From Polynucleobacter meluiroseus (GTDB lineage Bacteria > Pseudomonadota > Gammaproteobacteria > Burkholderiales > Burkholderiaceae): a stretch of 64,000 nucleotides of DNA. Below the pieces are notes generated by a model that saw only the letters and a list, made by a program, of their open reading frames with translations, did not search any database and was not told the origin of the DNA. The position numbers and the translations under genes are program-made. Positions 14,596 through 44,707 of the stretch are shown in pieces (position 1 is the first letter of the stretch; the number at the start of each line of letters is the position of its first letter). Where the stretch lies: positions 124,001-188,000 of the forward strand of contig NZ_OANS01000001.1 in the NCBI RefSeq assembly GCF_900205755.1. The letters are read 5' to 3'.

Positions 14596-15164
14596 TTCTC
14601 TAGGGTCGCTTTTTTTCTAGGTGAAAGGATCGCTCTTGCTAAAGGGAGATCCTCTAATTTGGCATTTGCGGGTGGTAAGACCCGATAGTATTGCTTCACA
14701 TCATCATATTCAATTTTCCAGCCATGCAATTGATCGAGCATTTGCATATTGAGCAAACGCTTGAGGGTGGCATCGCCAGTCAATGTCAAGAATTCAGTTT
14801 TTGCGTTATAGGTGACCACGCTAGAGCGGCCTTGCATAAACTCATCTGCACGGCCATCGCGGCGCTGACGAAAATTAGCCAAGTCCTCTGGAGTGCCTTG
14901 AACATCAATATATTCATAGCCCTCCGGATCTACCTTAATATTGCTTTTATCCCCTGTAATCAAGATGCTTCCTTTGGTCAGTAGGACAGTGCCATCTAGT
15001 TGATAGATTTGCTGTACGTCATCAACAGATACTTTTTCGGCCTCAAGTACGATGGGCTTATCCTGATCTGCTTTTTCAGCATGCGAGACTCCGAGGCTAA
15101 ATAATCCGAAGAGGAGAAGAGCTAAAGCGGTCTTATGCAAATTAGAGGAGGTGATTACCGTCAT
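14592..15164 (-). CDS. lptA: periplasmic LPS bridge protein (LptA)
   Basis: OstA-domain protein that polymerises into the periplasmic bridge carrying LPS between LptC and LptD. 190 residues: a signal peptide (residues 1-29, cleavage likely after GVSHA) and a beta-jellyroll of OstA repeats, seen in [20 protein letters not shown] and [18 protein letters not shown]. Start and stop overlap lptC and lptB respectively by four bases, so the three are translationally coupled. The C-terminal tail [14 protein letters not shown] is basic. Confidence 0.95.
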
Positions 15165-15814
15165 GGACGTATTCCTTGTTGCTCCCGCTCAATTCGGCCT
15201 CGTACTTGACCTGACAAGACCATGCTTTGCTGAACATTATTAAACGTGCCCCCATCACTCGCATGCATGACCGACATCCCCTGTTCTAGAGTGATTGGTT
15301 TATTGGTTTCGATGATGTCATCGTTAATAAGCACTTTAAAAAAAGAAGACAGTGCTAGCATTCTTGGTCTAGCAGGTTCAGTGGCTGAGGCTGCTTGTGG
15401 CGGGCGAAAAATCTCTGCATTACCGGTTAAGTCTAGGATAGTAAGGTCGCCATCCAAATGTCCAAGATCAGACTTCACTGTGACAGCCGCTTTCCCTGGG
15501 GGAAACAAGCGCATCCGCGGCGCAGTAATGTCAATCGAAGCATCATCATCGTAGTGAATCACTTTTTTGCCTAAGATCCGATATTTTGTTTTACCTAATT
15601 CATCTAGGGCAGAGAGCGCCCCATTCACAATGGTGTAATCCGGCTCATGCAAGCGAACCCGTTCAATGACTGATTTTGATACGGGTTCATTTTGTTTCAC
15701 TAGCCAGAATGTGACGAGCGTCAAAACACCCATCAATAACAGGGGCGTGAGGCGTAGCAAGCTACGCAATAAGCCTGTTTTGATGGTTTCAGAATTCAGA
15801 TAGGCTGTTTTCAT
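15161..15814 (-). CDS. lptC: LPS export membrane-anchored protein (LptC)
   Basis: Bitopic inner-membrane component of the Lpt bridge. 217 residues with one transmembrane helix (about 22-40, LTPLLLMGVLTLVTFWLV) and a periplasmic OstA-like beta domain (LHEPDYTIVNGALSALDE, DIIETNKPITLEQGMSVMHA). It receives LPS from LptB2FG and passes it to LptA. The start is three bases after kdsC; the end overlaps lptA. LptC sequences diverge widely, and the context supports the call. Confidence 0.94.
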   Translation of the reverse strand: MKTAYLNSETIKTGLLRSLLRLTPLLLMGVLTLVTFWLVKQNEPVSKSVIERVRLHEPDYTIVNGALSALDELGKTKYRILGKKVIHYDDDASIDITAPRMRLFPPGKAAVTVKSDLGHLDGDLTILDLTGNAEIFRPPQAASATEPARPRMLALSSFFKVLINDDIIETNKPITLEQGMSVMHASDGGTFNNVQQSMVLSGQVRGRIEREQQGIRP

Positions 15815-15817
15815 GAC

Positions 15818-16390
15818 TTAGCCACGTGCCTGAGCAAGCAATCCTTCATATTGGTTCTGTGCTTTGAGAATGAGATCGCAAACTTCACGCACAGCGCCCT
15901 TACCGCCGGCCGCCTCAGTCACAAAATGCGCGCCATCTTTCACGCTCACATGAGCCTGAGCAGGGCATACTCGCAAACCAGCCGATTTCATCATGGCAAG
16001 ATCAGGCCAATCATCGCCCATGACCGCGCAATCTGCAGGTTTCAAATGCAATGCTTGAAGAATTTCTTGCAGAGCAATCGCCTTATCTTTCACACCCATG
16101 TGTACATGATTAATCCCGAGCTCAGTGCAGCGCCCTAAGACCATTTTGGATTCTCGGCCCGTAATGACCGCAGTAGGTATGCCCACCTGCTGTAAAAGCT
16201 TGATGCCAAGACCATCTTGAATATCAAATGACTTAAATGCTTCTTGTCCATCCGGCCCAATAAATACTTGGCCATCGGTAAGCACTCCATCCACATCCAA
16301 TACCAATAACTTTACCTGGGTAGCGCGGTCCCATGCTTGCGGATAACGACTAGAGGGATTGGTATTGTGGGGATGAAAAGCATTAGGCAT
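15818..16390 (-). CDS. kdsC: 3-deoxy-D-manno-octulosonate 8-phosphate phosphatase (KdsC)
   Basis: HAD-family phosphatase (C0 type, tetrameric) that releases Kdo from Kdo-8-phosphate for LPS inner-core synthesis. 190 residues. Motif I DVDGVLTDG carries the nucleophilic aspartate, motif II is the ITGRES segment, motif III includes the lysine in GVKDKAIAL, and motif IV is MGDDWPDLAMM. About 25 residues precede the domain. It sits between kdsD and lptC. Confidence 0.95.
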   Translation of the reverse strand: MPNAFHPHNTNPSSRYPQAWDRATQVKLLVLDVDGVLTDGQVFIGPDGQEAFKSFDIQDGLGIKLLQQVGIPTAVITGRESKMVLGRCTELGINHVHMGVKDKAIALQEILQALHLKPADCAVMGDDWPDLAMMKSAGLRVCPAQAHVSVKDGAHFVTEAAGGKGAVREVCDLILKAQNQYEGLLAQARG

Positions 16391-16426
16391 AAGAGGGTGC
16401 TGTAAAGAAGGGGGTGGGCAGGTAAT

Positions 16427-17419
16427 TTAAATTACTTTAGCGGCAAATAGGTCATGCAAATTCAGGGCTCCCAAAAGTGCTCCTTGGGAATCCGTCACCA
16501 CTAAATGATTGATGCGATGTTTTTCCATCATCTCAATCGCTTCCTCTGCAAGCAATTCAGCGGGGATGGTATGTGGCTTGCTGGTAGTGGCTGCTTTAAG
16601 AGAAAAGTCAGTCAAATTGCTACTCTTTTCCAGCAAGCGGCGTAAGTCGCCATCGGTAAAAATGCCGGCTACTTTCTGATGCTCATCAAGGGTGACCACC
16701 ATACCCATGCGTTTAGCAGTCATTTCTAACAAAGCTTCTGATAGAGGAGCTTCCTGCGAAATCTTGGGGGTGTCGCCATAACTACGCATCACCTCACTCA
16801 CGTACATGAGCAATTTACGACCAAGTCGTCCGCCTGGATGGGAGCGCTGGAAGTCCTCAGCCTGAAATCCTCTGACATCCAAAAGTGCAACGGCTAGCGC
16901 ATCACCCATGGCAAGGGTCGCGGTAGTACTGGCGGTCGGAGCCAGATTGAGTGTGCACGCCTCCTTCTCTACGCTGGTATCCAAATGGGCATCGGCCAGC
17001 TTGGCTAGGGAAGAGTCTGGCGCGCCGGTTAAAGCAATTAATTTCGCACCAGTGCGCTTCACAATGGGGACAATAGTGAGAAGCTCTTCTGTTTCCCCAG
17101 AGTTGGAGAGGGCCACAAAGACGTCATCTCGCGTCACCATACCCAAATCACCATGACTGGCTTCCGCAGGATGAACAAAGAACGCAGGGGAGCCTGTAGA
17201 GGCAAAGGTGGCCGCAATTTTGCGGGCGATGTGCCCAGATTTACCAATCCCTGAAACTACGATGCGGCCTTTGCAAGAATGCAGAAGTTCCACCGCGAGC
17301 ACGAGGGCGTCCGCATTGCTGCCTGCCAATCTATCGCGCATAGTGAGCAGGGCATCAGCTTCAATGCTCAAGGTATCAAGCGCAAGCTTTAGGGTACGTT
17401 CACGAGTCTTAGCTATCAT
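16427..17419 (-). CDS. kdsD: D-arabinose 5-phosphate isomerase (KdsD)
   Basis: Converts ribulose 5-phosphate to arabinose 5-phosphate, the first committed step toward Kdo. 330 residues: an SIS domain (about 30-200; GIGKSGHIARKIAATFASTG, the SNSGETEEL phosphosugar motif and RGFQAEDFQRSHPGGRLG) followed by two CBS domains (about 210-330). First gene of the Kdo/Lpt block, separated from the divergent antiporter by only 11 bases, so the two promoters must overlap or lie within the opposite genes. Confidence 0.96.
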   Translation of the reverse strand: MIAKTRERTLKLALDTLSIEADALLTMRDRLAGSNADALVLAVELLHSCKGRIVVSGIGKSGHIARKIAATFASTGSPAFFVHPAEASHGDLGMVTRDDVFVALSNSGETEELLTIVPIVKRTGAKLIALTGAPDSSLAKLADAHLDTSVEKEACTLNLAPTASTTATLAMGDALAVALLDVRGFQAEDFQRSHPGGRLGRKLLMYVSEVMRSYGDTPKISQEAPLSEALLEMTAKRMGMVVTLDEHQKVAGIFTDGDLRRLLEKSSNLTDFSLKAATTSKPHTIPAELLAEEAIEMMEKHRINHLVVTDSQGALLGALNLHDLFAAKVI

Positions 17420-43140: not shown

Positions 43141-43449
43141 GCAGAGTCAATTAGGCAATCGCCGCCTCTTTATTGAGGGGGAGGAAAGTCCGGACTCCAC
43201 AGGGTAGGGTGTTGGCTAACAGCCATCCACGGCGACGTGCGGAATAGGGCCACAGAGACGAGCGTATTTAGTTACGGTGAAACGCGGTAACCTCCACCCG
43301 GAGCAATCCCAAGTAAGCAGACGATGAGGCGACCCGCTGAGTCTGCGGGTAGGGAGCTTGAGCCGTCAGGTAACTGCCGGCCTAGAGGAATGATTGCCCC
43401 TAGATGAAAATCTGGGCGACAGAATCCGGCTTATCGATTGACTCTGCAC
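43141..43449 (+). ncRNA. rnpB: RNase P RNA, bacterial class A
   Basis: Catalytic RNA of RNase P, which matures tRNA 5' ends. The terminal P1 helix pairs GCAGAGTCAA (43141-43150) with TTGACTCTGC (43438-43447). The invariant core regions are GAGGAAAGTCCGGACTCC (43181-43198) and AGAATCCGGCTTAT (43421-43434), which form P4; GGTGAAACG is also typical. Ends are set by P1 and are good to a few bases. A -10-like TAGACT lies about 8 bases upstream. No terminator hairpin is evident just after the 3' end, which abuts the stop of the convergent OsmC gene. Confidence 0.95.
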
Positions 43450-43872
43450 TTATTCTGCAATGACTTCCACGCTGTAAGTCAGTTCCGCTGTTTTAGACAG
43501 CATCATGGTCGCTGAACAGTACTTTTCATGAGAAAGCTTGACAGCGCGGTCTACCTTGGCGGGGTCGAGGTCTTTACCTTTTACTTGGAAATGCAAATTA
43601 ATCTTGGTAAACACTTTAGGGTCTTCGCTAGCTCGCTCCGCTGTAAGTTGAACCTCACAGCCAGTAATGGCTTGCCTAGAGCGCTGTAGGATTAAAACCA
43701 CATCAAATGCGGAACAGCCACCAGCCCCGGCTAAGAGCAATTCCATTGGTCTAGGGGCTAAATTTCTGCCGCCTGCCTCTGGTGCACCATCCATATTGAC
43801 CAAGTGGCCACTGCCTGTTTCAGCCGAAAAAGCCATCCCATTACTACCTAACCAACTCACTTTACATTCCAT
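43450..43872 (-). CDS. OsmC/YhfA-family thiol redox protein
   Basis: 140 residues. The OsmC fold is marked by PRPMELLLAGAGGCSAFDVV with the first reactive cysteine, and LSHEKYCSATMMLSKTAEL with the second; together they form the peroxide-reducing or redox-sensing site of the family. The short YhfA-like form lacks extra domains. It converges on rnpB with no spare bases and is preceded by a good promoter (43896-43923). A perfect FNR-type site lies about 98 bases upstream of its ATG, so anaerobic control of this gene is one possibility. Confidence 0.9.
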   Translation of the reverse strand: MECKVSWLGSNGMAFSAETGSGHLVNMDGAPEAGGRNLAPRPMELLLAGAGGCSAFDVVLILQRSRQAITGCEVQLTAERASEDPKVFTKINLHFQVKGKDLDPAKVDRAVKLSHEKYCSATMMLSKTAELTYSVEVIAE

Positions 43873-43895
43873 CGGCTTAAATCCTATTTAGACAA

Positions 43896-43923
43896 ATTAT
43901 CAATAATATCAATAGTTTACCAA
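43896..43923 (-). promoter_or_regulatory. candidate sigma-70 promoter of the OsmC-family gene
   Basis: On the minus strand TTGGTA (43923-43918) and GATAAT (43901-43896) are 16 bases apart, predicting transcription start near 43889, about 17 bases before the ATG. The -10 area also contains a direct repeat of TATTGATA-like units. Confidence 0.5.
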
Positions 43924-43963
43924 CATTTTAATAAGCTCTTGAATGATTTGATGCTGAGAATTA

Positions 43964-43977
43964 TTGATTTAGATCAA
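43964..43977. promoter_or_regulatory. FNR/ANR (Crp-Fnr family) binding site
   Basis: TTGATTTAGATCAA is an exact match to the FNR consensus TTGAT-N4-ATCAA with both half-sites perfect. Its centre (43970.5) is about 41-47 bases before the predicted start of the downstream small RNA candidate, close to the class II activator position, and about 81 bases before the predicted OsmC transcription start on the other strand. Which promoter it serves is inferred, and no fnr gene lies in the window. Confidence 0.7.
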
Positions 43978-44011
43978 TTTTCTTGCATTGCACCATATTG
44001 TGTGTAAGAAT

Positions 44012-44120
44012 GACCATATAGACAGTCAGCCCAATACATAAGCTTTGACTTGTCGCCCAGTGTCTCCTCCACTTAAACATCAGTGGATTCCAACCCAGGA
44101 CTCGTTCCTGGGTTTTTTTT
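44012..44120 (+). ncRNA. candidate small RNA with intrinsic terminator, possibly FNR-controlled
   Basis: No coding frame is supported here. The strand folds into three successive hairpins: GACAGTCA/TGAC-T-TGTC (44021-44054, 17-base loop), TCCACT/AGTGGA (44068-44073, 44082-44087) and the terminator stem at 44092-44114. An unpaired stretch between hairpins one and two carries TGTCTCCTCC, complementary to Shine-Dalgarno sequences, as in target-binding regions of known sRNAs. A -10-like TAAGAAT (44005-44011) with TTGCAT (43983-43988) upstream predicts a start near 44017, just before hairpin one. Expression and exact ends are unproven. Confidence 0.5.
44092..44120 (+). terminator. strong orphan intrinsic terminator
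   Basis: AACCCAGGA (44092-44100) and TCCTGGGTT (44106-44114) pair perfectly over nine bases around a CTCGT loop, followed by eight T (44113-44120). It points in the plus direction only. The nearest plus-strand transcript upstream is rnpB, about 640 bases away across the antisense OsmC gene, so it most likely ends a separate short transcript. Confidence 0.9.
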
Positions 44121-44278
44121 GGGTTACAATTCAAGGCTTTACTGAATTACCGACTTAGTCAGCGGTAGTTGCTTTACCAGTCGATTGCAGAATCTGCGAG
44201 CTTGCAAACATAAGCAGGGCCAAGGTGGACGTAGTTTGATTGGGGTACTTTTTTTTGACTATAACAATTTGAGAAATC

Positions 44279-44707
44279 ATGAAAACTTTTTCTGCAAAAT
44301 CCCATGAGGTAACGCATGAATGGTTCGTGATTGACGCTACGGACAAAGTCCTCGGTCGTGTCGCCAGTGAAGTGGCACACCGTCTACGCGGCAAGCACAA
44401 ACCCGAATTCACGCCACACGTTGATACAGGCGACTTTATCGTTGTCATCAACTCATCTAAGCTGCGTGTCACAGGCACAAAAGGCTTGAATAAAATTTAC
44501 TACCGTCACAGTGGATACCCAGGTGGTATTAGCTCGACTAACTTCGACAAGATGCAAGACCGTTTTCCTGGTCGCGCATTAGAGAAGGCTGTCAAAGGTA
44601 TGTTGCCTAAAGGCCCACTCGGCTACGCTATGATTAAAAAATTAAAAGTCTATGGCGACGCTACTCATCCACACTCGGCTCAACAGCCTAAAGTGCTAGA
44701 GATTTAA
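44279..44707 (+). CDS. rplM: 50S ribosomal protein L13
   Basis: Early-assembling large-subunit protein. 142 residues, full length. [46 protein letters not shown], and the YRHSGYPGG and [18 protein letters not shown] segments are diagnostic. It is co-transcribed with rpsI nine bases downstream. The leader of about 140 bases may be a target for autogenous control, but I see no structure I can name. Confidence 0.98.

Follow-up and report, generated by a model that had tools for sequence, protein, structure and literature searches.

Our analysis indicates that the segment at 44018-44120 on the plus strand of the window, i.e. the whole 64,000-nucleotide stretch analysed here, very probably encodes a genuine small regulatory RNA, the local version of the known betaproteobacterial family RF02278. 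We favor, with a probability of roughly 0.86, the reading that it is a trans-acting RF02278 sRNA orthologous to ncS27 of Burkholderia cenocepacia J2315, which is made from a sigma-70-type promoter and, with the aid of Hfq, blocks the Shine-Dalgarno (SD) regions of receptor genes. The grounds for this reading within the present analysis are the conserved structure, seed and locus and the complementary sites; the transcription, processing, pairing and regulating signal of the window sRNA are what we infer. The initial annotation had proposed a candidate new sRNA with an anti-SD seed and its own terminator. Covariation and a conserved locus uphold an sRNA of the trans-acting type, and the claim of novelty falls because the segment matches RF02278 and is the positional orthologue of ncS27. 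The candidate new sRNA is thus replaced by a named family with a studied positional orthologue.

The predicted transcript is 103 nt long, and its predicted 5' end, A44018, was placed by aligning ATAGA of the window with ATTGG of relatives, together with the published 92-nt length of ncS27. Its fold reaches -28.8 kcal/mol against a shuffle mean of -17.9 (sd 3.0), corresponding to a z of -3.64, and none of 200 shuffles was as low. All of its elements lie on the plus strand: a 5' hairpin (44021-44054), whose counterpart is cut away by processing in ncS27 and in S17 of B. pertussis; the single-stranded anti-SD seed GCCCAGUGUCUCC (Site 1, 44055-44067); and a double-hairpin core composed of hairpin 1 (44068-44087) and hairpin 2, which together with its T-run makes an intrinsic terminator (44092-44120). 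The nine-pair terminator with eight T and the two further hairpins ahead of it, as annotated earlier, are therefore retained, with the stem at 44092-44114 and the T-run at 44113-44120; this is the sole terminator-like site in 43850-44300 (0.4 expected from shuffles). The C/U-rich stretch annotated as unpaired requires a correction, in that GCCCAGUGUCUCC is unpaired in both the MFE and centroid structures, whereas the final UCC of TGTCTCCTCC (44061-44070) is paired and forms the base of hairpin 1. TGTCTCCTCC has a single occurrence in the 64-kb window (0.09 expected; at least one in 6 of 100 shuffles).

The covariance analysis that had been suggested as a check shows that all three hairpins covary. 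Judged by shuffle controls, which are only indicative because related sequences are not independent, the core hairpins of 28 aligned sequences keep standard pairing in 93.6% of cells, where shuffles reach 81.0%. Their covariation score is 0.382 (0.135 in shuffles), and 8 of 15 pairs have both-side changes, compared with an expected 4.9; 2 of 500 shuffles matched or exceeded this count. By the same kind of control, the 5' hairpin of 23 aligned sequences has both-side changes in 8 of 11 pairs (3.4 expected) and a score of 0.285 (0.155 shuffled). Within the core, the both-side changes are found in 3 of 7 pairs of hairpin 1 and in 5 of 8 pairs of hairpin 2, the terminator. The genus alignment comprises 48 loci (47 distinct) from the first 56, with five weak own-genome hits, L051, L052 and L040 left out. 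GTCTCCTCC is invariant across the 28 aligned sequences, partly by selection, since the exact core served to locate the loci and the genus matches used go down to about 36 bits. Among the 49 rplM-type genus loci fetched via the covariance model, TCTCCTCC is present in 48; the remaining locus is truncated where its contig ends.

In the window, hairpin 1 has the loop ACTTAAACATCA, where the second CU-rich anti-SD motif is absent, and the window sRNA is therefore placed outside the two-seed subtype (Site 1 plus Site 2, as for S17). A CU-rich motif occupies this loop in 5 of the 48 genus loci and is missing in the other 43; CTCC is found there in all 75 named non-genus loci with the core.

The Rfam search, also proposed earlier, argues directly against the word new. 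RF02278 (Betaproteobacteria_toxic_sRNA) matches 44061-44121 on the plus strand over the full model, 1-64, at 50.2 bits, a marginal value that exceeds the gathering score of 50 by 0.2 bits. The segment has the two adjacent hairpins of the family, the second being the intrinsic terminator, and, immediately before hairpin 1, the CU-rich anti-SD stretch TGTCTCCTCC, which aligns with the model consensus. It is the one RF02278 copy above cut-off in its own genome. The other own-genome matches, at 19.8 bits or less, are attributed to chance, as 13 of 14 control genomes match at that threshold, and a reading of the segment as ylbH was rejected at 15 bits against a cut-off of 50.

The family is widespread around this genome. 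At E <= 0.001, RF02278 is found in 155 of 186 genomes of the genus (137 of the 144 of good quality) and was not found in 31 (7 of the 144); the match is above cut-off in 115 of the 186, leaving 40 of the 155 matching genomes below it. In the family sample, 385 of 398 genomes match at E <= 0.001 and 375 lie above cut-off; some large genomes have as many as 11 matches. None of the 14 control genomes matches at E <= 0.001. Among the papers listed by a full-text literature search, none has both Polynucleobacter and 'toxic small RNA'. Two genomes of the genus also carry a second, weaker RF02278-like double-hairpin RNA (L051:1467-1530, 37.5 bits; L052:1517-1580, 36.1 bits), in which the seed GTCTCCTCC is identical; it is preceded by an inverted repeat, GAGCGTTAC..GTAACGCTTG, and rplM and osmC were not found nearby.

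The sRNA occupies a conserved place. Upstream stands an osmC-family gene on the minus strand (43450-43872; NCBIfam NF008009, 155.5 bits), in agreement with the earlier remark that no plus-strand gene lies directly upstream, and downstream stands rplM, encoding 50S ribosomal protein L13, on the plus strand (44279-44707; TIGR01066, 195.5 bits). Both genes flank the sRNA in 46 of the 49 fetched genus loci; the exceptions are L015 and L040, which are cut by contig ends, and L046, which is without a detected osmC. The apparently lost core in L040 proved to be a contig end with adaptor-like sequence. Across the family, 30 genomes representing 22 Burkholderiaceae genera were chosen; 23 of them have the core upstream of rplM, and osmC was detected as well in 22 of these, so the sRNA has been kept beside rplM while the operator and the second seed changed. 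The core was not found at the other 7 of the 30 rplM loci, including that of G197, a genome with four RF02278 copies elsewhere. Among 80 osmC loci of named relatives, the exact core adjoins osmC in 75 and rplM follows beyond the core in 74; a search for exact TGTCTCCTCC only did not find it in L139, L149, L156, L157 and L196. As a separate observation, one locus (L107, genome G207) contains the core about 1.1 kb upstream of rplM with the hairpin unclosed, as if interrupted or decayed.

The place of the window sRNA corresponds to that of a studied RNA. The passages of PMC4603805 that concern J2315 give ncS27 as complement(3666557..3666648), between BCAL3348a and BCAL3349, and list BCAL3348 as a ribosomal protein gene. 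With its start corrected to 3666965, BCAL3349 has 141 codons including the stop, which is the OsmC length here. The distance from the osmC start codon to the RNA start is 317 nt in J2315, by the coordinates in those passages of PMC4603805, and is likewise 317 nt in B. lata and B. aenigmatica when the RNA is started at ATTGG; from ATTGG to the end of the T-run, the RNA of these two species measures 91 nt, compared with the 92 published for ncS27. On these grounds, we regard the window sRNA as the positional orthologue of ncS27. This identification is made by the present analysis, and the passages on ncS27 in the cited papers mention neither rplM nor this genus.

The linkage to rplM raises the question of whether the hairpins could be a leader or attenuator of rplM-rpsI, with no separate RNA. 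Such an arrangement would be consistent with the shared strand, the 218 nt between the seed and the rplM ATG and the conserved sRNA-rplM linkage. We consider it very improbable, given that the distance between core and rplM varies from 211 to 995 nt across the named loci, that a minus-strand ORF of about 100 aa intervenes in both of two g12 (presumed Burkholderia) loci and that ncS27 of J2315 was mapped as a separate 92-nt RNA, according to the relevant passages of PMC4603805.

Conserved promoter-like elements precede the predicted 5' end. The predicted -35 element, TTGCAT (43983-43988, plus strand), belongs to a TTGCRTTGCA-like element present in 28 of 48 genus loci and also, by eye, in Burkholderia and Paraburkholderia. 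The predicted -10 element, AAGAAT (44006-44011, plus strand), was matched by eye to TANAAT-type hexamers found in relatives, and is part of the TAAGAAT already pointed out before hairpin one, which we find at 44005-44011 with nine bases between. A consensus promoter scan listed four promoter-like sites and the predicted -35/-10 pair is not among them, so it is conservation on which the promoter call is based. The same scan result would suit an explanation in which the terminator only ends read-through from rnpB or antisense transcription and has neither dedicated promoter nor function, particularly as rnpB (RNase P RNA, class A; 43143-43449, plus strand), which adjoins osmC on its far side, lies about 0.6 kb upstream on the same strand. 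This we find scarcely credible. Covariation extends upstream of the terminator, the 5' hairpin included, and the promoter-like elements are conserved; moreover, read-through from rnpB is unlikely because osmC on the opposite strand separates the two and a 92-nt transcript has been published at the equivalent Burkholderia place. A scan of 20 loci, drawn from this genus and from others, detected rnpB in 13 as well; several of the loci were too short to reach it.

Upstream of the putative promoter there is a palindrome, TTGATTTAGATCAA (43964-43977), which we regard as a candidate operator. It has an FNR-like form and its center lies about 47 nt (about -48) upstream of the predicted start, with 5 nt between it and the predicted -35. 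Within 150 nt upstream, TTGAYNNNNRTCAA occurs exactly in 21 of 48 genus loci and with at most one mismatch in 26, and in 17 of the 21 exact loci it likewise stands 5 nt before the -35 located by script. Burkholderia, Paraburkholderia and Pandoraea have, by eye, ATTTCGCAATGCAAAT-like palindromes at a nearly equal position. In many loci of these three genera (within L117-L187), tandem palindromes, one TTTCACATTATGAAA-like and one ATTTCGCAATGCAAAT-like, were also seen by eye before the promoter, about 21 bp apart.

In the own genome, TTGAYNNNNRTCAA occurs at 29 places and its reversed pattern at 12; of 15 such boxes inspected away from the sRNA locus, 12 lie inside ORFs. Three HTH_Crp_2 proteins of the genome score above cut-off; no FNR-type cysteine cluster was seen by eye among the Crp-type proteins read, and NCBIfam gave no match for the one Crp-type protein compared. 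FNR boxes that activate usually sit at -41.5. The palindrome center at about -47.5 is off this position, and the sequence gives a weak hint that FNR may control the sRNA. In the same genome, tandem Crp-type regulator genes were noticed by eye beside a transposase-like ORF at a contig end (G000:C2, about 14600-16700; L230, L231).

To search for targets of the CU-rich seed, as had been suggested, 12 chosen genomes and 6 further genomes of the genus were used, 18 in total; in these, extended-complement sites open 27 ORFs of at least 100 aa. In the 12 chosen genomes, GGAGGAGAC before ATG gave 26 matches and the reversed pattern 6. ORFs of at least 100 aa begin at 20 of the 26, and one match, L244, corresponds to the sRNA in antisense. 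The control GGAGGAGT gave 49 matches, and 8 of the 30 examined open such ORFs, some of them internal. In the six further genomes, GGAGGAG had 84 matches, i.e. 78 distinct sites, and the AC-extended sites are gene starts in 7 of 7 cases, whereas among the sites extended otherwise this is true of 17 of 71. The Fisher p of 1.3e-4 for this comparison, in which the control class counts L361 twice, is too optimistic because the genomes were self-chosen and orthologues recur. The enrichment is also partly one of strong SD sequences followed by A, since AA-extended sites are gene starts in 3 of 4 cases and several TctC-like genes, recognized by eye, are without the AC extension (L271, L277, L319, L320, L351). 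L351, with an AT extension, looks like the counterpart of L305, so orthologues do not all retain the site.

The 27 ORFs are nevertheless of a restricted kind. Pfam assigns 13 to TctC, 6 to Peripla_BP_6, 3 to FAD_binding_5 and 5 to single other families, so that periplasmic solute receptors make up 19 of the 27. In the own genome, a 9-nt site is found at one gene only, a TctC gene (G000:C10:426805; 10-nt complement), that is, at one of its five TctC genes; in G012 no 9-nt site was found. The shorter 7-nt site, GGAGACA before ATG, has 17 matches in the own genome compared with 10 for the reversed pattern, and opens ORFs of at least 100 aa at five loci: L214, L224, L225, L226 and L228, of which L228 is the TctC gene and, by eye, L224 resembles ssb, L225 a response regulator and L226 a transhydrogenase subunit. 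The duplex energy at the TctC site is -21.2 kcal/mol, compared with a mean of -9.2 (sd 3.8) for 54 ORF starts of the window; duplex energy alone does not decide targets, as L214 reached -21.9.

These results bear on whether the RNA could be a general translation brake, which slows growth by broad SD pairing without a dedicated target set. The seed is indeed anti-SD, the family is named for toxicity in E. coli, and overexpression of ncS27 attenuated growth according to the passages of PMC5688073 on it. However, the conserved seed extends past the SD complement, the sites of extended complementarity cluster at solute-receptor genes, and S17 appears hardly toxic: its overexpression left the exponential growth of E. 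coli unimpaired, as stated in the S17 passages of PMC11722255, so 'toxic' may not describe the RF02278 family. We therefore judge a general brake to be unlikely. Because of the sites at receptor genes, and because BP3501 is a target of S17, the control of organic-acid and amino-acid uptake is the most likely role of the window sRNA, and TTT and other solute receptors are supplied as testable targets.

On the preferred reading, a trans-acting sRNA that blocks receptor genes, the sigma-70-type promoter would yield an RNA of about 103 nt, from about A44018 to the terminator at 44120. By analogy with S17, RNase E probably removes the 5' hairpin. The exposed UGUCUCC(UCC) would then pair with SD regions of the GGAGGAGACA type with the help of Hfq, which is encoded in the genome (103.7 bits), and translation initiation would be blocked. 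The main targets would probably be periplasmic receptors for organic acids (TctC/TTT) and amino acids, and carbon uptake would be damped when the promoter is active. It is conceivable, and we would rather doubt it than assume it, that the genus rewired an ancient osmC-rplM sRNA through loss of the second pairing site and, in the clade of the window, exchange of the operator for an FNR/CRP-type palindrome at about -48. If true, what had been a general metabolic brake would now answer to a different signal and, through its single seed, regulate the genes of TTT and other solute receptors.

Among known systems, ncS27, an RF02278 member, is the closest: it has the same place, between BCAL3349 and BCAL3348, and the same orientation, and, as read in the relatives of J2315, the same 5' hairpin, double hairpin and UGUCUCCUCC seed. 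The two differ in the CTCC in the hairpin-1 loop of the 75 named loci, which the window is without; in the upstream palindrome, of ATTTCGCAATGCAAAT type in Burkholderia and TTGATTTAGATCAA in the window; in the extra ORF before rplM in two presumed Burkholderia loci; and at the 5' end, where relatives read ATTGG and the window, with its predicted end, ATAGA. The predicted targets of ncS27 belong to carbon transport and metabolism, as given in the relevant passages of PMC5688073. BdhR1 of B. cenocepacia is also an RF02278 RNA, so named in a passage of PMC11722255; the reference given in that passage makes it probable that BdhR1 and ncS27 are one RNA.

S17 (CT_433) of B. pertussis is described in the passages of PMC11722255 devoted to it as Hfq-dependent and processed by RNase E, as repressing at ribosome-binding sites and as having complementary sites in 70 of 92 up-regulated genes. 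Its description resembles the window sRNA in the C/U-rich 5' end, the terminator and the transporter targets including BP3501, a TTT protein raised in the hfq mutant; bp3501 is given as an S17 target in passages of two studies, one by RNA-seq and one by RIL-seq. In contrast, S17 lies beside coq7, has a longer precursor (190 nt) and uses two pairing sites, according to the same passages of PMC11722255. Further sources cited, again for individual passages, are PMC7011215, PMC5760752, PMC10987360, PMC12235514, PMC6627887 and PMC8632094. By description in PMC5688073, as far as the passage concerned goes, NmsR of Neisseria is likewise a small RNA with a CU-rich anti-SD motif. Another RNA of this type is anti-hemB/ncS04, whose model RF02837 scores 22.3 bits on the segment, below its cut-off of 49.5. 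The CcsR 'cuckoo' RNAs of alphaproteobacteria, also small RNAs with CU-rich anti-SD motifs, resemble the window sRNA by description as well.
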